Assembly (NCBI GenBank): GCA_900315785.1
Contig: ONAL01000004.1
Location: 19,021-83,020 of the forward strand
DNA from: an uncultured Eubacteriales bacterium
GTDB taxonomy: Bacteria > Bacillota > Clostridia > Oscillospirales > Acutalibacteraceae
Length of the DNA stretch: 64,000 nucleotides
Direction of reading: 5' to 3'
Both the position numbers and the translations under genes were made by a program. The notes under the pieces were generated by a model. It worked only from the letters and a program-made list of their open reading frames with translations, was not told the origin of the DNA and searched no databases. This document shows, in pieces, positions 861-58,595 of the stretch; the first letter of the stretch is position 1; each line of letters starts with the position of its first letter.

Positions 861-874
861 AGGAGGCGGCAAAA

Positions 875-1030
875 ATGAAAAAACAGTATTCAAAACCACA
901 GATAACTTCATATGAGCTCGCCCGTACCGATGTGCTGATGACCAGCACCGAGATTCCACCCGCCGAGCCCAACACCACACCCGAAAGCCAGATTCAGCAC
1001 AATTTCCTGTTAGAGCTATTTTTCCTGTAA
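875..1030 (+). CDS. Small peptide (51 aa) with Y-x-K-P-x-I / D-V-L-M signature
   Basis: A 51-codon gene starts at ATG 875, seven bases after an AGGAGG site at 861-866. The product begins MKKQYSKPQITSYEL and continues with ARTDVLMTSTEIPP, then a Pro/Thr/Gln-rich stretch and a hydrophobic tail ending ELFFL. It has no Cys and no signal peptide. A second gene at 6352-6528 encodes a clear relative with Y-x-K-P-x-I, L-x-R-x-D-V-L-M-x-S-x-E and a late FFL in the same order. From family knowledge, short clostridial proteins opening with a Y-x-x-P-x-I motif followed by a D-V-I/L..S motif are common and mostly uncharacterised; some sit near peptide-maturation genes. A role as a precursor or signalling peptide is inference. 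Confidence 0.72.
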   Translation: MKKQYSKPQITSYELARTDVLMTSTEIPPAEPNTTPESQIQHNFLLELFFL

Positions 1031-1037
1031 GTGTGAT

Positions 1038-2180
1038 ATGATGAATTTATTTCGAAAACCCGCAGCTTTACTTTTATCGGTTCTGCTGATTGCCGCAGCA
1101 ACTGTTACGGCAATCGCAGAGACCTACGGCGACGGAAGCTTCGAGTTTGAAAAAACAGACAAGAACAACGGAATAATCGTGAGCTGCTCGCTCTCTGACG
1201 AGGACATCACCGTTCCCGAATTTGTGCTCGGCTACCCGATTGCGGGTATCGGCGACTACGCCTTTATGAGCCTTCCAGGCCTCAGAACGGTAACAATGCC
1301 CGAGGCGGTCGTTTCAATCGGCGAATACGCTTTTGCCGAAAATCCTAACCTCGTGAGCGTCAGGATTCCCAGAGCTTGCAACTCAATCTCCGACAACGCT
1401 TTTGCGAATTCGCAGAATGTGACAATCATCGGTTATGCGGATTCATTTGCCAAAACCTACGCGGAGACTAACGGTCTCAGGTTCGAAGCGGCGGAGCCGA
1501 CACCTCAGCCCACAACAGAAAAGCTGACAGAACAGGTCACAACCGAGCCCGTAACGGAAAAGCCTACGGAACAGGTCACAACCGAACCCGTAACGGAAAA
1601 ACCTACGGAACAGGTCACGACCGTGCCCGTCACCGAGAAACCGACGGAAGAGGTCACAACCGAACCGACAACAGGCAAGATGAACGAGCCGCCGCTTCCC
1701 ACGGCAAAGCTTTCCAAATCTTCCTTAAAGCTCAAATCGGGTGCCGCAGTGACTGTCAAGGTAAGGGACGGCGAAGCCAGGAGCTGGAAGTCCTCAAACC
1801 CGAAGGTCGCAGCCGTCAAAAACGGCAAGGTCACAGCTCTCAGAAAGGGCTCGGCAAAAATCATCGTATCCCTCACAAACGGCCTGAGACTCACCTGTAA
1901 GGTCAGCGTGACCACCTCACCGACGATAAAAATCGGCAAAAAGAAGTGGAGCAAAAGCGCCGCCTATTCCGTCAAGAAGGGCAAGACCCTGACGGTCTCA
2001 ATCACAGGCAAGGCAAAGACGGTCAACAACATCTACAGAACCACCGATAAAAAGCTTGCGAAAATCACCTCAAAGCCCTCCGCTTCAAAGGCGGTTATCA
2101 AGGCTTACAAAAAGGGAAAGGCGACAGTCACCCTGACCGTCAACGGCGTTTCGTTCGGAATCAAGCTGAAAATATCATAA
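1038..2180 (+). CDS. Secreted BspA-like leucine-rich-repeat protein with Ig-like (Big_2) C-terminus
   Basis: The 380-residue product has a signal peptide (about residues 1-28), then two BspA/LRR_5 type repeats (GIGDYAFMSLPGLRTVTMP and SIGEYAFAENPNLVSVRIP), a Thr/Pro/Glu linker made of 13-residue repeats (about 155-215) and a bacterial Ig-like domain of Big_2 type (about 220-295). A Lys-rich module follows and ends NGVSFGIKLKIS. The same last module ends the protein at 2358-3407. Such proteins are exported and bind surfaces or hosts; the partner is unknown. The start is only eight bases after the stop of the small peptide gene and has no good ribosome binding site of its own, which suggests translational coupling. 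ATG 1041 is an equally possible start. Confidence 0.8.
   Translation: MMNLFRKPAALLLSVLLIAAATVTAIAETYGDGSFEFEKTDKNNGIIVSCSLSDEDITVPEFVLGYPIAGIGDYAFMSLPGLRTVTMPEAVVSIGEYAFAENPNLVSVRIPRACNSISDNAFANSQNVTIIGYADSFAKTYAETNGLRFEAAEPTPQPTTEKLTEQVTTEPVTEKPTEQVTTEPVTEKPTEQVTTVPVTEKPTEEVTTEPTTGKMNEPPLPTAKLSKSSLKLKSGAAVTVKVRDGEARSWKSSNPKVAAVKNGKVTALRKGSAKIIVSLTNGLRLTCKVSVTTSPTIKIGKKKWSKSAAYSVKKGKTLTVSITGKAKTVNNIYRTTDKKLAKITSKPSASKAVIKAYKKGKATVTLTVNGVSFGIKLKIS
1528..1671 (+). repeat. 39-bp tandem repeats encoding a Thr/Pro/Glu linker
   Basis: Three nearly perfect copies and one partial copy of a 39-bp unit encode the 13-residue unit TEQVTTEPVTEKP. The array lies inside the leucine-rich-repeat protein gene and separates its repeat and Ig-like domains. 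Copy number in such arrays often varies between strains. Confidence 0.8.
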
Positions 2181-2183
2181 TCA

Positions 2184-2208
2184 AAGCCCCTCAGCCGAGG
2201 GGCTTTTT
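2184..2208 (+). terminator. Intrinsic terminator
   Basis: The stem AAGCCCCTC / GAGGGGCTT with a four-base loop is followed by a T-run, four bases after the stop of the leucine-rich-repeat gene. Confidence 0.85.
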
Positions 2209-2288
2209 GCTGCGTGCTTTGGCGTTTTGCCTAAATGTGTAAGTGATATTTCGCTGTTTTGTCAATGGAATAGCACATCGTGAAATGG

Positions 2289-2294
2289 TATAAT
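2289..2294 (+). promoter_or_regulatory. Extended -10 promoter for the second BspA-like gene
   Basis: TATAAT preceded by TGG gives an extended -10 element (TGGTATAAT). No good -35 is present at the usual distance. The element lies about 40 bases before the AAGGAGGA site and ATG at 2338, so it is the likely promoter of the frameshifted BspA-like gene. Confidence 0.5.
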
Positions 2295-2357
2295 GATATG
2301 TACAAACGTATCCCTTTGGGATAAGGAGGAATTTTCAATGAAAAAACAATAAGACTT

Positions 2358-3407
2358 TTGAGCGCGGTGCTTGCGGTACTTGTGCTTATGTCCGTGGTTT
2401 CGGGACTGAGTGTCTCGGCGGCAGTCGTAAAGGGCACCAGCGGAAGCGTTAAATGGAAGCTCAACACCTCGACCGGAAATATGATTATCTGGGGCAAGGG
2501 CGCAATCAACGATTTTGAATATCCGTCCGACGTGCCGTATCACAAGTATGTCGGTAAAATCAAGAAGGTTGAAATCAGAGACGGCGTAACGGAAATCGGC
2601 TTCCACGCGTTCGCAAACTGCAACCACCTCACAAGCGTGAAGATTCCCGCAAGCGTATACCGCATCGGCTCCGACGCTTTTGAGAATTGCCGTTCTCTCA
2701 CAAGCGTTGTGATTCCGAGTCGGGTCACAACAATTGAGGATTATCTTTTTGCGGGCTGCACAAGGCTCAAGGCGGTTTATATCCCCGCTTCCGCCACATC
2801 AATCAGCAAGTACTCGTTTATGACCGTTATCAAGAACGATAACTACGGCTTTGACAAAAACTTCACGGTTGTTACCAAGAAGGGCTCCGCGGCTGATAAG
2901 GCAGCAAAGAAAAACGTCAAGGTCAGCTACGCAACACTTTCCGCCGAGAAGGCAACTCTCAAGGCGGGCGGCACAAAGGCGTTGACCCTCTCGGGCGCGA
3001 CAGCTTCGGGCTGGCTCAGCCAGACAACCTCCGTAGCAAGAATCAAGGACGGCACGGTAACGGGTCTCAGAAAGGGCACGGCTGTTGTCGGCGCAAAGCT
3101 TGCTAACGGCGCGGTTGTTACCTGCAACATCACCGTAAGCAACAATCCGTCGTTAAAAATCAACGGCGCGGCTTTTGACGCTTCCAAGACCTACGCTGTC
3201 AAAAAGGGCTCGTCCCTCTCCGTCAGCATTTCGGGCAAGGCGGCTTCCGTCAACAATTCCTACAGCACCACCGACAAGAACGTAGCGGCTGTTACCTCGG
3301 GCAGAGCCGCAAGCAAGGTCAGCATCGCTGGTTTCAAGGCTGGCTCAGCTATAGTCACAATCAAAGTAAACGGCGTAGCCTTCAAGGTAAAGGTTAAGGT
3401 AAAATAA
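2358..3407 (+). CDS. BspA-like LRR/Ig-like secreted protein, start apparently frameshifted
   Basis: The 349-residue product carries LRR_5 repeats (about residues 60-135, for example EIGFHAFANCNHLTSVKIP), a Big_2 Ig-like domain (about 195-265) and a Lys-rich end module shared with the protein at 1038-2180. The frame as it stands begins at TTG 2358 without a ribosome binding site. The best start is ATG 2338, eight bases after AAGGAGGA, but it reads only M-K-K-Q-stop. Adding one A to the run of six A at 2341-2346 would join the frames and create a normal signal peptide opening MKKTIRLLSAVLAVLVLM. So the gene has a one-base frameshift in a homopolymer: a real mutation, a slippage switch or a sequencing error. 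It ends at a strong terminator. Confidence 0.7.
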   Translation: MSAVLAVLVLMSVVSGLSVSAAVVKGTSGSVKWKLNTSTGNMIIWGKGAINDFEYPSDVPYHKYVGKIKKVEIRDGVTEIGFHAFANCNHLTSVKIPASVYRIGSDAFENCRSLTSVVIPSRVTTIEDYLFAGCTRLKAVYIPASATSISKYSFMTVIKNDNYGFDKNFTVVTKKGSAADKAAKKNVKVSYATLSAEKATLKAGGTKALTLSGATASGWLSQTTSVARIKDGTVTGLRKGTAVVGAKLANGAVVTCNITVSNNPSLKINGAAFDASKTYAVKKGSSLSVSISGKAASVNNSYSTTDKNVAAVTSGRAASKVSIAGFKAGSAIVTIKVNGVAFKVKVKVK

Positions 3408-3416
3408 GCTTCACGA

Positions 3417-3450
3417 TTTTCCCCTCTGATGCGTGTCAGAGGGGATTTTT
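3417..3450 (+). terminator. Intrinsic terminator
   Basis: The stem CCCCTCTGA / TCAGAGGGG is followed by ATTTTT, ten bases downstream of the second BspA-like gene. Confidence 0.85.
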
Positions 3451-3501
3451 GCGCGGGAAAAAGGCAGGAACGATAACGCTCCTGCCATACTTATGTCTGT
3501 T

Positions 3502-4770
3502 TTAATATTTGTCGGGGATAAATATACTCACAGTTGTTCCGCCGTTTTTGCCCGACTTTATTGTCAGTGTGCCCTTGCACATCATCGTGAGCCTTTCACG
3601 GATGTTTTTGAGCGCTATATGCGGCTCGTCGTTGTCGTCTTCACCGAAACCCGGACCCGTGTCCCTGACGGTGATTTTGCTTCCGTGGTCGGTTTTGCGC
3701 GTGGCGATGTAGATGTGCGTCGGGTCAAGCTCGGGTCTTACACAGTGCTTTACCGCGTTTTCGACAATCGGCTACAGTGTCAGCGGCGGAAGCTTGAACG
3801 CCGTGTGCGGAGTGTCAAACTCCACGAACATCTCGCCCTCAAATCTGATTTGCTCCACGGCGAGGTACGCGCGCGTGTGTTCCAGCTCCTCCGTGAACGG
3901 GATTGTGCCGTCCTTCGCAATCGCCGAAAAGTTCTTGCGCAGATAATTCGTGAAGTCCAGCGTAACCTGCTGAGCGGTTTTCGGGTCCTGCTCGCAAAGG
4001 TAATAGATACTCGTCATTGTGTTGTAGATGAAATGCGGCCTCATCTGCAATACGGAAATGCTCGCGCGCTGCTGCGCGATTTTTTCTTTCTGCTGAATGT
4101 GTCTGCCAATCTGCTCGCTCTGGATTACGACCATCAGGTACAGCGCGCCGAGCGCAGACCCCAGCACAATGAACATAATTCCGTATACAAAAATCTGAAC
4201 GACCATACAAATCATCGGAGCGAGTATGAACACCGAGAACGCGACTACCTGCTTCCTTTCGAGCTTCTTTCGCTTTATGAACAGCCATACAAGGTTCACA
4301 ACCATAATCAGCACCGCTGGAATAAGCAGTACAAAGTAGTAGGGACCGCGCATATACACGTTATCTGGTGTGATGTAGTAGATGAACGTCGTGAACTGCG
4401 TCACAACGAGCAGAGCGCAGTAAATAACGAACAGCGGCAGACCCGTGAAGAAGAGAGGGCTTCGCTTGTAGTTTTCGCCGCAGTTGTGAATAAGCATCAG
4501 CGTGAGAATAAGCATAGCCCCCGACGAGGTCAGCGACTCAAGAAAAATCGCAAGCTGAGACGCCCACGCGGGACCTGTTATCTCAAGCGAAACCGACGAC
4601 CAAAGGTTGCACGAGATGTAGACCGTGAGAATCGCAAAGAGCACTATGAACAGCTTCTTTGACCATTTTTGGATTGTATTGTTTACGACGGTGAGCAGAA
4701 GTCCGATTATAACGGTTATCAGCGCGGCGGAATCAAGCGAAAGGTTTACAAGAGTCATTATATCGACCAT
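3502..4770 (-). pseudogene. LytS/YehU-type sensor histidine kinase interrupted by an in-frame amber codon
   Basis: The frame from ATG 4770 encodes seven or so hydrophobic segments (residues about 5-215) and a His_kinase (PF06580-type) domain with phospho-acceptor His246 in QMRPHFIYN. It stops at a TAG at 3772-3774, after PPLTL. Beyond the TAG the same frame continues for 89 codons with an intact ATPase domain: PIVENAVKH (N box), DTGPGFG (G box), KNIRERL, and NGGTTVSIFIP, ending at TAA 3502. In this family the N box normally reads LQPIVENA, so the TAG replaces a Gln codon (CAG to TAG). The kinase is therefore truncated before its ATP site unless the codon is suppressed or is an error. It overlaps its response regulator by one base. 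Confidence 0.8.
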
Positions 4771-5363
4771 TACTTCAACCCCCTTACGGGATATATGAGC
4801 AGTCTGAGCTGAGCCTCGACCTTTTTATCGGACAGCGGCTTCATCAGATATCCGCACGCTCCCGTCTCCCAGGCGTCGAGGGAATAATCCATATACGCTG
4901 TCAGGAAAACGATATTCATTCTCGGGTTGACTTTCAGCAGCTTGCGGCAGAGCTCGAGCCCTGTCTCGCTCCGAAGCTCGATATCAAGGAATGCCAGCGC
5001 GACCTTGTGCGTCATAGCATATTGCAGCGCTTCGGAAGCCTTCGTGAATCCGACGATTTCGGCTTTCGGCATAACCCTCTTCAGAATCGGAATACCGCCC
5101 GTCAGTATAATTTTCTCATCGTCAACCATCATCACAATCGGCTTTTCCGCATTGACCGAATCGAGGAATACCTCGCTGTCAACGTTGAGCAGCTTCGCAA
5201 GCTTTGTCACGATTGTGTAGTCGGGCATACGGCGGCCGCTTTCCCAGTTCGCGACCGTGGAACGGTCAACGTACAGCAGCTCCGCAATCTGTTGTTGCGA
5301 CATTCCTTTTTCTGTTCTGATTCGTCTCAGAGATTCTCCAAACGATGATTTCACATCAATCAC
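4770..5363 (-). CDS. Response regulator with N-terminal XRE helix-turn-helix and C-terminal receiver domain
   Basis: The 197-residue protein has an HTH_3/XRE DNA-binding domain at about residues 8-62 (MSQQQIAELL, STVANWESGRRMPDY) and a CheY-like receiver at about 75-190, with acidic pair Asp81/Asp82, phospho-acceptor Asp127 in AFLDIEL, Thr155 and Lys175 in YLMKP. The usual order in response regulators is receiver first, output second, so this is a reversed architecture. It precedes and overlaps the sensor kinase gene by one base (TAATG) and they form an operon. The start used is GTG 5363; a GTG at codon 4 is an alternative. With its kinase interrupted, its phosphorylation state is uncertain. 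Confidence 0.85.
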   Translation of the reverse strand: MIDVKSSFGESLRRIRTEKGMSQQQIAELLYVDRSTVANWESGRRMPDYTIVTKLAKLLNVDSEVFLDSVNAEKPIVMMVDDEKIILTGGIPILKRVMPKAEIVGFTKASEALQYAMTHKVALAFLDIELRSETGLELCRKLLKVNPRMNIVFLTAYMDYSLDAWETGACGYLMKPLSDKKVEAQLRLLIYPVRGLK

Positions 5364-5455
5364 ATCGTAATACTATTCCAAATTAATTATAATCGTTTGT
5401 TCTGTTTTAGACAAGATTGTGCGAATAAAAAAACGTGACAATTTGAAACATCCCC

Positions 5456-5484
5456 TTGAAATCATCACTTTAATTAGTTAAAAT
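5456..5484 (+). promoter_or_regulatory. Sigma-A type promoter
   Basis: TTGAAA (5456-5461) and TAAAAT (5479-5484) are separated by 17 bases. The element points to the zinc-ribbon membrane protein gene at 5602. Confidence 0.6.
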
Positions 5485-5541
5485 ATCCCCGTGCTCAAGG
5501 TTGTTTAGGTCGACGACGACCGCGGGCACAGCCAAAAACAG

Positions 5542-5571
5542 TTGCCGCCGTCACACACTGCGCGGCGGCAA
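5542..5571 (+). other. 5'-UTR stem-loop
   Basis: A perfect 9-bp inverted repeat TTGCCGCCG / CGGCGGCAA with a 12-base loop lies between the promoter at 5456 and the start codon at 5602. There is no T-run, so it is not a classical terminator; it may stabilise the leader. Confidence 0.5.
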
Positions 5572-5601
5572 TATCCCCTTATGGATTTGGGAGGTGTTTC
5601 G

Positions 5602-6189
5602 ATGGCTCTTATTACCTGTCCTCACTGTGGACGCAGAAATGTGTCCGATTATCAGAGCGTCTGTCCCGCGTGCGGCGAACCGCTTAGCTTTATGACTGAG
5701 AACGGCGAGCCCGTTCGACCCCGAAGGGCAGAAATAAAAACAAACAAAGAAGAGAAAAACCGCCTCAGAAACGAGCGGCTTGACGAAGCAAAGCGCGCGC
5801 TTCTGCCCGAGCTCAGACGGGAGCTCGATAGGATTGACGCGATGACTGTTCCCGACAAACCGAGCTTTTTTAAAGAGCTCGGAAGGAAAACGGCTCCTCT
5901 GCTCCTGCTTTTGCTGTCCGCGGTTCTGACTGCAGTTGTATTCTTTCTGCTGAGACCTTGGCTCGTTGTGTGTCTGATTCTGACTCTGTGTGTCCTGTGT
6001 TATGCTGTTTTCACCGCTTTCAGAAGCTACAGAAAAGAGCTCGGCGAATATTACGAAATCACCGATGATTTTGACGACTACAAGGAAGGTCTCAAGGACG
6101 AAGTCCGTGAGAAATATCTGAAACTCGCCGAAAATATGGCAATTCACAATTCTAAAGAAACTCCAAGTTTTATCTCAAATTGGTCATAA
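5602..6189 (+). CDS. Zinc-ribbon membrane protein
   Basis: The 195-residue product starts at ATG 5602, after the GGAGGTG site at 5590-5596. It opens with a four-Cys zinc ribbon (CPHCG at 6-10, CPACG at about 22-26), followed by a charged Lys/Glu/Arg-rich region and two adjacent membrane helices (about residues 95-140) and ends in an acidic tail. The layout is that of the many clostridial zinc-ribbon domain proteins of unknown role. No partner genes are adjacent. Confidence 0.7.
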   Translation: MALITCPHCGRRNVSDYQSVCPACGEPLSFMTENGEPVRPRRAEIKTNKEEKNRLRNERLDEAKRALLPELRRELDRIDAMTVPDKPSFFKELGRKTAPLLLLLLSAVLTAVVFFLLRPWLVVCLILTLCVLCYAVFTAFRSYRKELGEYYEITDDFDDYKEGLKDEVREKYLKLAENMAIHNSKETPSFISNWS

Positions 6190-6196
6190 ATATCCC

Positions 6197-6231
6197 TGCG
6201 CAGCCTCTCACAATCGTGAGGGGCTGTGCGC
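6197..6231 (+). terminator. Probable terminator hairpin
   Basis: A long imperfect stem (GCGCAGCC and CTCAC against GTGAG and GGCTGTGCGC) follows the zinc-ribbon gene. The tail is not T-rich, so termination would be weak or factor-assisted. Confidence 0.45.
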
Positions 6232-6266
6232 TTGTAAAAAACTTTATGCAAAATTCTTACATTTTG

Positions 6267-6295
6267 TTGACAAAGTGCAATTTTTGCGTTACAAT
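6267..6295 (+). promoter_or_regulatory. Strong sigma-A promoter of the 58-residue peptide gene
   Basis: A consensus TTGACA (6267-6272) and TACAAT (6290-6295) are separated by exactly 17 bases. The first gene downstream is the small peptide gene at 6352, which is closed by its own terminator, so the promoter drives a monocistronic peptide mRNA. Confidence 0.8.
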
Positions 6296-6351
6296 ATGTC
6301 TAACTAGTTTGCTTAATATAGGGTACCATCATCGTGAAAGGAGGATTCTGA

Positions 6352-6528
6352 TTGAAATCTGAATATTTTAAACCATTGATTTCGGTTGAAATCCTCGAGC
6401 GCGCAGATGTGCTGATGTCCTCGGGCGAGGTTGTTCCCGTTGAAACAACGCAGCCCAAGGGAGCTGAGCTGGAGAACAGCTACCGCGACATTACTTCGTT
6501 CTTCTTAAGCGGAAAATGGTTTGACTAA
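6352..6528 (+). CDS. Small peptide (58 aa), paralogue of the 51-residue peptide
   Basis: The gene starts at TTG 6352, seven bases after AAAGGAGG at 6338-6344, and runs 58 codons to TAA. The product opens MKSEYFKPLISVEILERAD, continues VLMSSGEVVPVE and ends SFFLSGKWFD. It shares Y-x-K-P-x-I, L-x-R-x-D-V-L-M-x-S-x-E and FFL with the 51-residue peptide, in the same order and at nearly the same positions. It has no Cys and no signal peptide. It is a single gene between a near-perfect promoter and a strong terminator, so it is likely well expressed. The function is not known to me. It may be a modification or secretion substrate of the kinase/PqqD/peptidase genes at 57-58.6 kb, which is inference. 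Confidence 0.72.
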   Translation: MKSEYFKPLISVEILERADVLMSSGEVVPVETTQPKGAELENSYRDITSFFLSGKWFD

Positions 6529-56114: not shown

Positions 56115-56130
56115 TTAAACGGTGATTTGT

Positions 56131-56649
56131 ATGAATTTTGAAAAAATTAAACAAATACTCGCAATTTCGACCGCTTGTTTAGTTCTTACAGCGTCGATGG
56201 TTTCGTGCGGCGAGAGCGGCGGCTCCGATAAAAAGAGCTCTGATTCAGGCTCAGGCAGCTCCCGGAGTTCGCAGAGCAGCTCGTCCTCGTCAAAGTCAGG
56301 CTCTTCGACAAAGTCATCAAAGAGCTCCAAGTCAAGCGGCTCCGACAGCTCAGAGGCTTCGGGCGGCTCGTCATCGTCAAAGGGCTCCGACAGCTCCTCG
56401 AAAACCTCAAAAAGTTCGGTAAGCTCGTCGGGCACGACTTCTTCAAAGACTTCCTCGAGCGTTTCCTCAAAGACATCCTCGGGCACATCGTCCAAGACTT
56501 CCGGAAGCTCTCAGTCCAAGCTTTCCTCAGGAGAGTCCCCAAAGGATTCGGAAAACAGCTCCTCAAGCACATCGTCCAAGACTTCATCAAGCTCGTCACA
56601 GCAGGGTATTCCCAAAGATAACGCGGAGGTGGATTTCAGTGACCTTTAA
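56131..56649 (+). CDS. Ser-rich lipoprotein
   Basis: ATG 56131 is preferred over the upstream GTG 56122 because GGTGA lies five bases before it. The 172-residue product has a lipoprotein signal with lipobox MVSC (Cys about 25) and then about 120 residues of mostly Ser with Lys, Gly, Thr and Glu (SSKTSS-type units), ending NAEVDFSDL. It looks like a long flexible, possibly glycosylated spacer without a folded domain. It overlaps the next dockerin gene by 11 bases, so the two are translationally coupled. Confidence 0.72.
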   Translation: MNFEKIKQILAISTACLVLTASMVSCGESGGSDKKSSDSGSGSSRSSQSSSSSSKSGSSTKSSKSSKSSGSDSSEASGGSSSSKGSDSSSKTSKSSVSSSGTTSSKTSSSVSSKTSSGTSSKTSGSSQSKLSSGESPKDSENSSSSTSSKTSSSSSQQGIPKDNAEVDFSDL

Positions 56650-57145
56650 GAAATTTTCAATTGTATTTACAGCGATAATTATGGCTCTTCTTATGAGTAT
56701 TGCTTCTGTTTCCGTAATGGCGGCAGGCGACTCGATTCCCAAGGAGCCCGAGCCCGTACCTACCGATATTCTCGACGACGAACCCACAACGGCAGCGCCC
56801 GCTCAGGAAGTCGGCACTACGGCTCCCGCGTCAGATGAAGGCGTGGTTATTCCCGATAAGCCGACCAAGGCGGTTTCCGAAGAGGAGCCCGCGGTTGATC
56901 CTGAGGTGCTCTACGGCGACGTGAACCTCGACGGCAAGGTTAACATCAACGATGTTACCGCGCTTCAGAGCTACTTTGCACGCAAGATTGACGCGCCCGC
57001 AGGTCTCACGACTCACGGCGACACAAATACCGACGGCAAGGTCAACATCTATGACGCTACGGTAATTCAGCTTTACCTTGCTGGTACGTTTACAGAGCTT
57101 CCCGTCACTCCCGACGGCTACTACGCAAGACTCATCAGACCATGA
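56639..57145 (+). CDS. Secreted type I dockerin protein
   Basis: The start is GTG 56639, eight bases after GGAGGTGG. The 168-residue product has a signal peptide (about 1-29), a Pro/Glu/Thr linker (about 30-90) and a dockerin (92-150) with two good calcium loops, GDVNLDGKVNINDV and GDTNTDGKVNIYDA, and a 18-residue tail. Dockerins bind cohesins on cellulosome-type scaffoldins. No enzyme domain is attached, which is unusual. The stop overlaps the start of the P-loop kinase-like gene (ATGA), tying an extracellular protein to cytoplasmic processing genes. Confidence 0.88.
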   Translation: MTFKKFSIVFTAIIMALLMSIASVSVMAAGDSIPKEPEPVPTDILDDEPTTAAPAQEVGTTAPASDEGVVIPDKPTKAVSEEEPAVDPEVLYGDVNLDGKVNINDVTALQSYFARKIDAPAGLTTHGDTNTDGKVNIYDATVIQLYLAGTFTELPVTPDGYYARLIRP

Positions 57146-57870
57146 CGTTTGTTTACAAGATAGCGGATATCGTGTTCAGCGCCGATATCCGCTACAAATA
57201 CACCTATGAAATGATGCGCGATTATCTTGTGCAGGACGAAGAACCCGAGTTTCACGTCGAGGTTACCGACGCGGACATCGAAAACGAGCGGGAGCTTTCG
57301 CCCTACGACGACATAACCGCGCCTGTGTTTGAATTTACGGCGGTTTACCGCAAATACATCGATGTTATTATGGACAGGTACGACGCTTTCTTCTTCCATT
57401 GTTCCGCGATAGAAGTTGACGGCGGCGCTGTTATGTTTACCGCAAAAAGCGGCACAGGCAAGAGCACTCACCGCAGACTCTGGCTTGAGCGCTACGGCGA
57501 CAGGGTAAAGGTTATCAACGACGACAAGCCCGTTATCCGCAGGATTGACGGCAGGTTCTATGTTTACGGAACTCCGTGGAAGGGCAAGGAGAACTTCGGC
57601 GAGAACGTTCGCGTTCCCGCAAAGGCGCTCTGCTTCCTTTCAAGAGCCGAGCAGAACTCCATCGGTCCGATAGATACGGTCACGATTATTTCACATCTTC
57701 TGAACCAGACGGTTCGTCCGACGGACAAGAAGCTGATGTCAAACCTTCTCGGGCTGCTCGACGGCTTTGTGCGTCAGGTCGACTGCTACGATTTGCGTGT
57801 GAATATGAACCCCGACGCGCCTGAGGTTGCGTACGAGGGTATTAAAAAAGGATTAAAGAATGAAGATTAA
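57142..57870 (+). CDS. HPr-kinase/PEPCK-like P-loop protein of peptide-maturation loci
   Basis: The 242-residue product has FFFHCSAIEVDGGAVMFTA followed by the Walker A AKSGTGKST (101-109), then VINDDKPVI (126-132) and VYGTPWKGKENF (141-152). This pattern is that of small HprK-like kinases found beside PqqD-like proteins in RiPP-type clusters, such as lasso peptide kinases and ScmC. It lacks the HPr-binding N-terminal domain of true HprK. Likely an ATP-dependent kinase on a peptide or protein substrate; the substrate is unknown. It overlaps both neighbours. Confidence 0.82.
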   Translation: MTFVYKIADIVFSADIRYKYTYEMMRDYLVQDEEPEFHVEVTDADIENERELSPYDDITAPVFEFTAVYRKYIDVIMDRYDAFFFHCSAIEVDGGAVMFTAKSGTGKSTHRRLWLERYGDRVKVINDDKPVIRRIDGRFYVYGTPWKGKENFGENVRVPAKALCFLSRAEQNSIGPIDTVTIISHLLNQTVRPTDKKLMSNLLGLLDGFVRQVDCYDLRVNMNPDAPEVAYEGIKKGLKNED

Positions 57871-58126
57871 AGACGGTTTTATGCTTCGTCAGTTCGGCGA
57901 CGAGTTCATCGTTGTCGCTGTCGGTGACGGAGCCGAGGAATTTAACAAGCTCATAACCCTCAACGGCGTGGGTAAGTTCATCTATGAGTACCTCTCGACA
58001 GACAGAACACGCGACGAGGTTGTGGAAGCTATGCTGAACGAGTACGAGGTCGACAGAGCTACTGCGTCCAGAGACGCGGACGCGTTTATCTCGGGACTCA
58101 AAAACGCGGGACTTCTTGATGTCTAA
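57860..58126 (+). CDS. PqqD-like peptide chaperone
   Basis: The 88-residue product matches the PqqD fold (RiPP recognition element): an N-terminal beta-hairpin region, ITLNGVGKFIYEYL (the L-N-x-x-G-x-x-I-x-x-x-L motif, about 33-46) and a helical C-terminus with a TRDEVVEAMLNEYEV segment. PqqD proteins bind leader peptides and present them to modifying enzymes. It overlaps the kinase-like gene by 11 bases and the peptidase gene by eight. No radical SAM or cyclase gene is close. Confidence 0.88.
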   Translation: MKIKDGFMLRQFGDEFIVVAVGDGAEEFNKLITLNGVGKFIYEYLSTDRTRDEVVEAMLNEYEVDRATASRDADAFISGLKNAGLLDV

Positions 58127-58595
58127 GCCGATAGCCTCCGTAATTCGGGAAAAGGGCTTCTGTATGATAACCCCAAAGGGCTACAGTATGTATCCTATGC
58201 TCAAGCAGGGCAGAAACCAGGTCTGCGTGGTCAGAGCCGAGCAGCCGCTTGAGCTGTACGATGTAGCTCTCTATATCCGCTCGGACGGCACCCACGTTCT
58301 GCACAGAGTAATCGGGTTTGAGGAAAACTCCTACATAATGTGCGGCGACAACCAGTGGGAGCCCGAGCACGGCATAACTCCCGATATGGTAATCGGACGG
58401 CTCGACAGCTGGTACAAGGGCAAAAAGGAGTACAAAACAGACGGCAAGCGTTATCTCAGATACGTCCGCTTCTGGTGCAAATCTCTGAAACGCCGCAGAA
58501 GGATTCTGAAAATCCGACGCGCGTTCTGCGAGATTGGCTGGTTTTTCAAGGGCGTGTTCGGGAAAATCGCTCGGATTCTCAGGATAAAAAAGTAA
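58119..58595 (+). CDS. S24/S26 family peptidase (signal-peptidase-like)
   Basis: The 158-residue product starts at ATG 58119. MITPKGYSMYPMLKQGRNQV carries the catalytic Ser of the S-M-x-P motif (about residue 24) and THVLHRVIGF the H-R-V motif; a Ser-His pair is used by SipW/Sec11-type signal peptidases. The domain ends after about 110 residues with GDNQWEPEHG and is followed by a strongly basic, weakly hydrophobic tail (Arg/Lys-rich, 120-158) that may bind membrane or substrate. Short enzymes of this type beside PqqD genes remove leader peptides in some RiPP loci. Confidence 0.82.
   Translation: MSKPIASVIREKGFCMITPKGYSMYPMLKQGRNQVCVVRAEQPLELYDVALYIRSDGTHVLHRVIGFEENSYIMCGDNQWEPEHGITPDMVIGRLDSWYKGKKEYKTDGKRYLRYVRFWCKSLKRRRRILKIRRAFCEIGWFFKGVFGKIARILRIKK

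Follow-up and report, generated by a model that had tools for sequence, protein, structure and literature searches.

Two small peptide genes of an uncultured Acutalibacteraceae bacterium as probable precursors of an LPP-like RiPP pathway

We analyzed a 64,000-nucleotide stretch of DNA from an uncultured Eubacteriales bacterium of the Acutalibacteraceae (GenBank assembly GCA_900315785.1, contig ONAL01000004.1, positions 19,021 to 83,020, forward strand), hereafter the window, which carries two small peptide genes: P0001 (875–1030, 51 aa) and P0002 (6352–6528, 58 aa). We consider it likely that both encode precursors of a ribosomally synthesized and post-translationally modified peptide (RiPP) pathway resembling that of the linear polyphosphorylated peptides (LPPs), with substrates distributed genome-wide and many of them dedicated to a large, probably exported protein. 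The two peptides fall into a family with a conserved leader and a variable tail, many members of which directly follow a large open reading frame (ORF), and the family co-occurs with genes for a RiPP recognition element (RRE) and its companion enzymes.

A family of leader peptides

A sequence-only reading of the window had singled out P0001 and P0002 as paralogues with strong ribosome binding sites (AGGAGG and AAGGAGG, respectively) and a common N-terminal signature. Both features hold: residues 5–10 of each peptide read Y-x-K-P-x-I, and L-x-R-x-D-V-L-M-x-S-x-E-x-x-P follows in the same order from residue 15. A search of the bacterium's own genome with P0002 recovers P0001 at E 4.1e-4 and 35% identity, a likeness beyond chance. 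Their relatedness stands, but two is too low a number, as the same genome contains at least eight matches at E ≤ 0.01 under profile A4, seven of them at E ≤ 1e-8. Profile A1 was built from six aligned own-genome members, five from places found in the P0002 search (E ≤ 10) and one from a DNA pattern; it scores P0001 at E 1.4e-21 and P0002 at E 2.1e-21, both peptides being members of the profile itself. Across 60 genomes of the genus, A1 matches at E ≤ 0.1 in 33, with 20 matches in genome G007 and 18 in G015, and a class-wide profile search of 293 genomes returned peptide matches at E ≤ 1e-4 in 14, own genome included. Judged by these profile matches, P0001 and P0002 belong to a larger precursor-peptide family, beyond a single pair. 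Pfam matched no family to either peptide, and NCBIfam gave nothing above cut-off.

A1 matches 66 ORFs at E ≤ 0.05 in the window together with loci L038 to L119, the latter picked for peptide, PqqD or HprK matches. Removal of two rows (L096, a duplicate of L038, and L061, which overlaps the window) gave a set of 64 peptides. These share the leader pattern Y..P.I.VEEL.K.DVL..S, with a mean pairwise identity of 0.48 for residues 1–25 versus 0.25 for the remainder, in keeping with the leader/core layout that had been proposed from the two genes. The late FFL, put forward at the same time as a shared feature, is not family-wide, most members ending otherwise. The tails are variable and Cys-free, and 61 of the 64 are net negative. 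None of the peptides begins with a signal-peptide-like run, and a hydrophobic 12-mer occurs anywhere in two. Every peptide has a Ser at Tyr+19 (57/64) or Tyr+20 (the other seven), none has Thr at Tyr+19, and Asp occupies Tyr+14 in 57.

Conservation of the reading frames, on which the earlier proposal depended, is seen as a synonymous bias. By codon comparison, pooled pN/pS is 0.41, 0.54 and 0.48 for three subgroups. Because dS is saturated in many pairs, including most that involve the window's own peptides, pairwise ratios are given only where finite: dN/dS ranges from 0.01 to 0.62 within the largest subgroup, equals 0.16 for L075/L076 and 0.11 for L074/L046, and is weakest for L041/L048 (0.73). 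L064 and L068 are separated by 18 synonymous changes versus one non-synonymous change, and P0002 against L075 gives 0.14 at a dS of 2.71. On these codon ratios, the peptide reading frames are under purifying selection.

P0002 represents a subfamily whose members stand alone, have related tails (ENxYxDIxSF..WF, less clear in L046 and L074) and often start with GTG or TTG. Nine genomes have one such member each among their fetched loci (window, L043, L046, L050, L073–L076 and L080); no close relative of P0002 was confirmed in genome_contigs. As had been read from the sequence, P0002 lies by itself between a near-consensus promoter-like site, the single 11/12 match for this gene (0.5 on average in shuffles), and a terminator-like hairpin with an 11-bp stem (three such sites in the window versus 0.4 in shuffles), both being pattern matches only. 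Near P0001, consensus matching found no promoter-like or terminator-like site. P0001 starts 14 nt past the stop codon of a large ORF on the same strand, and 7 nt after its own stop begins a gene for a BspA-type LRR_5/Big_2 protein.

Pairing with large proteins

The arrangement at P0001 is common in the family. Among the 64 peptide ORFs, 47 have a same-strand ORF (≥ 80 aa) as upstream neighbor, with the peptide start at −82 to +33 nt relative to its end, and 33 of these gaps measure 10 to 22 nt; the negative values stem from over-long peptide ORFs. The 17 unpaired members include three with no upstream ORF in the locus (at least two lying by a contig end), eight P0002-like peptides whose upstream gene is either farther away or in the opposite orientation, and L101, which has a 909-aa ORF at 64 nt. 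By crude keywords, the partner ends, or C-terminal domains (CTDs), divide into 36 of class A, about four of them misfits, and 11 of class B; profiles A2 and A3 were made from 30 aligned class A and 11 aligned class B ends, respectively. A hydrophobic N-terminal segment is present in 26 of the 29 partners that start inside their locus, with lengths of 177 to 2916 aa. At our thresholds, none of the 47 partners ends with an LPXTG-like motif or a hydrophobic stretch.

Profile A2 gave at least 95 matches, in 20 of the 60 genomes. A peptide match lies within 200 nt downstream of 49 of the 79 class A CTD matches in the ten clade genomes. Forty-five CTD matches were unpaired, and inspection of 39 found a peptide-like ORF missed by the model in eight (some lacking the Pro), a C-terminal tail instead of a peptide in seven, a peptide match about 1 kb further on in three, the domain inside a longer protein in four and a contig edge in two. 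Outside the own genome, the class-wide search yielded 22 peptide matches; 13 of the 16 loci examined have a same-strand ORF of at least 120 aa within 200 nt upstream, nine of them within 26 nt, and two of the 13 (L170 and L172) appear unrelated. AlphaFold modeled one class A CTD as a β-rich domain with 98 of 190 residues at pLDDT ≥ 90. A Foldseek search of the PDB with this model returned nothing at E ≤ 0.001, the best E being 8.3e-3 and TM scores about 0.3.

Several loci show variations on this arrangement. L062 (G015, contig C17) has four CTD-protein/peptide pairs in a row. In L140, L142, L143 and L144, a CTD-like domain lies inside the protein, with about 240 aa of other sequence after it. 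Ahead of P0001, the giant gene as contained in L061 (8828–19880, ending at window position 860) reads as two ORFs that differ in frame. The first, of 1370 aa and hydrophobic at its start, ends shortly before the P0001 partner, whose own frame stays open 5' of the first start codon; a frameshift or an error of assembly may be the cause. Pfam found no match in the partner ORF.

In tandem operons, seven CTD proteins end in a tail (EN....D.W.) and have no peptide; each is followed by the apparent start of another secreted protein, as seen in the first 60 nt. The upstream members of the tandem operons in L124, L125, L127, L129 and L131 have a short acidic C-terminal tail and no peptide. Three tandem operons could be followed to their end, and in each the final member is accompanied by a separate leader peptide. 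One of these peptide genes, behind the last giant protein of L125 (G007, contig C163), has an in-frame stop within its leader. Homology between tails and peptide cores found no overall support in two tests, with E > 2 for every core listed in a profile search and, by shuffling, p < 0.05 for 8 of 64 cores versus 11 of 200 background C-termini (KS p 0.06). A few cores are tail-like: two from L062 with identical letters (p 0.005 and 0.0075) and one from L053 (p 0.0025). Docking of the tail on the CTD is also unsupported, AlphaFold leaving tail residues 171–190 disordered (pLDDT < 50) on the folded domain, and covariation of a peptide Cys with a CTD Cys was inconsistent by eye.

Co-occurrence with predicted processing enzymes

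About 51 kb from P0002, the window encodes an enzyme set (57142–58595; locus 1) comprising an HprK-like kinase, a discrete PqqD-type RRE and a SipW-like S26 protein. The kinase has no Pfam match; all 12 orthologues have its P-loop. Against the PDB, the PqqD protein matches the lasso peptide protein TbiB1 (E 1.9e-6) and the LPP protein LppB (9x8z, E 6.5e-5). The S26 gene overlaps the PqqD gene, and its product, for which Pfam gave no S26 family match, has a Ser and a His spaced 39 residues apart, a spacing of 38–39 in 10 of 10 orthologues. The S26 gene accompanies PqqD in ten clade genomes.

A link between the peptides and HprK-like, PqqD and S26 genes had been suggested from the window and was checked over all 161 genomes of the genus, with PqqD taken at E ≤ 1e-26 and peptides at E ≤ 1e-8 under A4. 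Of these, 22 have PqqD and 33 have peptides; peptides occur in 22/22 genomes with PqqD versus 11/139 without. For six of the 11 (G012, G014, G020, G032, G035 and G042), the loci all have PE-type peptides, which go with the second kind of locus. Among the 60 genomes, the ten with PqqD at ≥ 60% identity are the same ten that have peptides at E < 1e-8 under A1, both thresholds having been chosen after inspection. Outside the clade, among the matches listed, 13 of 58 peptides lie on the same strand within 2.5 kb upstream of PqqD, where about 0.0011 per match, or about 0.07 among 58, would be expected by chance; no peptide among these matches lies near PqqD in any other arrangement. The suggested link is supported by this co-occurrence, by the adjacency outside the clade and by the published LPP pathway with enzymes of these kinds.

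The bacterium's genome has a second locus (L100) with a further PqqD and S26, an MsbA-like ABC exporter (MsbA_rel, E 7.8e-73, under the model cut-off) and a putative NTP transferase (381 aa, best E only 0.01). In G015, G033, G047 and G031, the second locus has a giant-protein/peptide pair of its own. Because no kinase was found at the second locus in the mapped clade genomes and six genomes (G000, G007, G015, G031, G033 and G047) have one kinase match each, the kinase is probably common to both loci. In G031 and G047 the kinase and the syntenic flank are present and the PqqD and S26 genes between them are missing; at this site G047 is also without the dockerin gene. Neither genome has a class A CTD match. 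Under A4 at E ≤ 0.01, among the matches listed, G047 has no peptide and G031 has one, in the contig region of its second PqqD; a weaker peptide is present at the second locus of G047. The kinase may have been kept in these two genomes because the second locus needs it.

Relation to LPPs and proposed pathway

LPPs were described from Paenibacillus alginolyticus in May 2026 (PMC13381572). Their pathway consists of the RRE LppB, the kinase LppK, the SipW-like peptidase LppS, the exporter LppD and the NTP transferase LppN. The precursors follow the consensus YxxPxVLxHQxIxFETxxS and are cut after the last leader residue. Phosphates are placed on core Ser3, which is at Y+18 of the printed consensus, and an S3T substitution abolished phosphorylation. 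LppS has a S29–H68 spacing of 39 and D93 as third residue. LPP clusters lie in capsule neighborhoods with 1–3 precursors each, and their biological role is stated as unknown. The sequence-only reading knew of no established function for such peptides, which still applies to the biological role; the biochemistry of a relative is now available in that account.

The system described here resembles the LPP pathway in several respects. The discrete RRE, the putative HprK-like kinase and the putative SipW-like peptidase of the window are the kinds of enzymes at the LPP core, and the second locus adds a candidate MsbA-like exporter and a putative NTP transferase. The peptides share a YxxP leader, a Ser about 18–20 residues past the Tyr and a variable tail, with no cyclase noticed, and the Ser–His spacing of the peptidase (38–39) compares with 39 in LppS. 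Unlike in LPP clusters, up to about 20 dispersed precursors occur per genome, many behind a large CTD protein. No words starting with clostridia, surface or secreted were found in the main text of PMC13381572, and a peptide/large-ORF pairing was not found in the sections of it that were covered. Pairing of such peptides with surface proteins was likewise not found in the literature searched, which mostly excludes subscription journals and bioRxiv. Prochlorosin-type RiPPs offer another parallel, in that one enzyme serves many distant substrates. As there, a single processing locus would act on many unlinked precursors with a common leader; the enzymes differ, and many substrates here are tied to a neighboring protein.

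In the pathway that we propose, the PqqD-type RRE would bind the Y-x-x-P-x-I leader. Setting the conserved Ser as LPP Ser3 places the predicted cut after residue 21, a leader/core border that comes from the LPP register rather than from data on these peptides. For P0001, the predicted leader is thus residues 1–21 (MKKQYSKPQITSYELARTDVL) and the predicted modified residue Ser24. The HprK-like kinase would phosphorylate Ser24, and the SipW-like S26 protein would cut before residue 22, freeing a linear, acidic, Cys-free phosphopeptide of 30 residues from P0001 or 37 from P0002. The mature product would be exported and, for the many partner-coupled precursors, likely act with the CTD of the partner at the surface. 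Each of these steps is deduced from homology or gene order, on top of what the comparisons show directly: the family, its selection, the gene pairing and the co-occurrence with the enzymes. P0001 would be a partner-coupled peptide and P0002 the stand-alone kind, processed by the same enzymes; as a guess, P0002 may act with CTD proteins that have no peptide of their own. Because LPP-like precursors stand next to giant, probably exported proteins many times within one genome, a role can be put to the test: the mature peptide may bind, anchor or assemble its neighbor.

Several observations weigh against this pathway or its comparison with LPPs. The YxxP and Ser agree with the LPP precursor consensus and the stretch between them does not (VEELxKxDVL in the family versus VLxHQxIxFET between P and S, the family stretch being one residue longer), which is why we call the family LPP-like and not a member of the LPPs. 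The Asp of the S26 CGDN motif is at His+15 versus His+25 for D93 of LppS, leaving the triad spacing unmatched, and the HprK and S26 family scores fall below curated cut-offs. Locus 1 has neither an exporter nor an NTP transferase. As read, the P0001 partner, a 2199-aa ORF in L061, is without a signal peptide. In 15 of the 39 inspected unpaired matches neither peptide nor tail was recognized, so the CTD can do without a peptide in some proteins, and no CTD protein lies immediately before the P0002-like peptides (L074 is too near a contig end to judge). Co-occurrence is concentrated in one clade. HprK is retained in G031 and G047, where PqqD and S26 are missing, and G047 has one weak A1 match elsewhere (E 0.0085). 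On loss versus ancestral absence in G031 and G047, the three gene trees contradict one another at weak support, and two of them are short of one genome.

Alternative explanations

A more specific version of the proposed pathway, which we regard as tentative and rather doubtful, would make each mature phosphopeptide a small subunit reserved for a single giant exported protein and joined to the β-rich CTD of that protein outside the cell. Synthesis and modification of the peptide would take place in the cytoplasm and its export separately from that of the Sec-type partner, which it would then cap, anchor or assemble at the C-terminal domain. If true, this would amount to sortase-free surface display, with RiPP chemistry maturing adhesin-like proteins, and would supply the missing role of LPP-type peptides.

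We hold it unlikely that the peptides remain unprocessed in the cytoplasm as partners or chaperones for secretion of the giant protein, their likeness to RiPP leaders reflecting an adaptor role of the PqqD-like protein only. The tight coupling to large, mostly exported-looking proteins would fit, as would the absence of any signal-peptide-like start among the 64 peptides and of an exporter at locus 1; the conserved Ser about where the related kinase acts and the S26 gene accompanying PqqD argue for processing instead. An extracellular signal or antimicrobial RiPP with the giant neighbor as a mere operon partner is improbable. Variable cores in several copies per genome and the exporter at the second locus are compatible with such a product, but 47 of 64 peptides come after a large ORF that in nearly every case has a CTD of one of the two classes and in no case an LPXTG-like motif, a pairing unexpected for a bystander.

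A lasso precursor, with PqqD as the B1 protein and macrolactam formation to follow, we judge very improbable. YxxPxL is a lasso leader motif (PMC10368454), and rumen lasso clusters contain HprK, PqqD and a nucleotidyltransferase (PMC7533575). A PqqD/RRE, a YxxPx[LIV]-type leader and an HprK-like kinase are shared with lasso peptides that have a discrete B1 (paeninodin and Bsf). The window's PqqD protein matches lasso PqqD models below cut-off as well as TbiB1, and residues 1–13 of P0001 weakly match NF033528 (lasso_cyano) at E 0.052, below threshold. We rejected the lasso assignment because the own genome (91.5% complete) has no B2 transglutaminase above cut-off, the best PF13471 match scoring 16.7 bits against 26 with one stop inside. 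In addition, no macrolactam synthetase was noticed in the mapped loci, where no search was aimed at one, and in 19 of the 50 best-scoring peptides the core is predicted to begin with Leu or Met; a linear product is expected here. That the peptides are decayed or split C-termini of surface proteins is hardly credible, since the tails of seven CTD proteins are somewhat like some cores but the similarity is not significant overall, and the peptides have their own start, a conserved leader, purifying selection and stand-alone members.

Features of the window

Table 1. Coordinates of the peptide genes, their flanking elements and neighbors, and the enzyme locus.
Feature	Position	Strand	Basis or remark
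C-terminal part of very large ORF before P0001	3..857	+	last 170 aa (348–857) aligned as class B CTD
Ribosome binding site of P0001, AGGAGG	861..866	+	sequence
P0001	875..1030	+	51-aa precursor-like peptide, ATG start
BspA-type LRR_5 + Big_2 protein, 380 aa	1038..2180	+	LRR_5 47.6 bits, Big_2 26.1 bits, both above cut-off
Promoter-like site of P0002, TTGACA-17-TACAAT	6267..6295	+	pattern match only
Ribosome binding site of P0002, AAGGAGG	6338..6344	+	sequence
P0002	6352..6528	+	58-aa precursor-like peptide, TTG start; stand-alone subfamily
Terminator-like hairpin 3' of P0002	6534..6558	+	pattern match only
Ser-rich lipoprotein-like gene, head of central locus, ends PKDNAEVDFSDL	56122..56649	+	similar gene at same place in relatives
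Protein with type I dockerin	56639..57145	+	PF00404 42.4 bits, cut-off 22.9
HprK-like kinase (LppK-like), P-loop SGTGKST	57142..57870	+	ScmC E 2.4e-6, hpr-ser E 0.045, both far below cut-off
Discrete PqqD-type RRE (LppB/B1-like)	57860..58126	+	PF05402 59.1 bits, cut-off 23.4
S26, SipW-like peptidase (putatively LppS-like)	58116..58595	+	TIGR02228 21.8 bits, cut-off 51.85; no membrane segment

The Ser-rich protein at the head of the central locus has no NCBIfam match. It and its relatives in L112, L038, L114, L116, L117 and L118 have similar tail endings (KDNVEIDFSDL and alike), and by reading, tails of this type resemble some peptide cores (DN....LADFSxFM). A dockerin-like duplicated motif ends several proteins beside peptides or enzymes, namely the product of 56639–57145 (by Pfam) and proteins in L100, L101, L158 and L159 (by reading). 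Elsewhere in the window, a sensor histidine kinase ORF on the minus strand (3772–4770) stops at a TAG, beyond which kinase-like sequence continues in frame; either a pseudogene or an assembly error could account for this.

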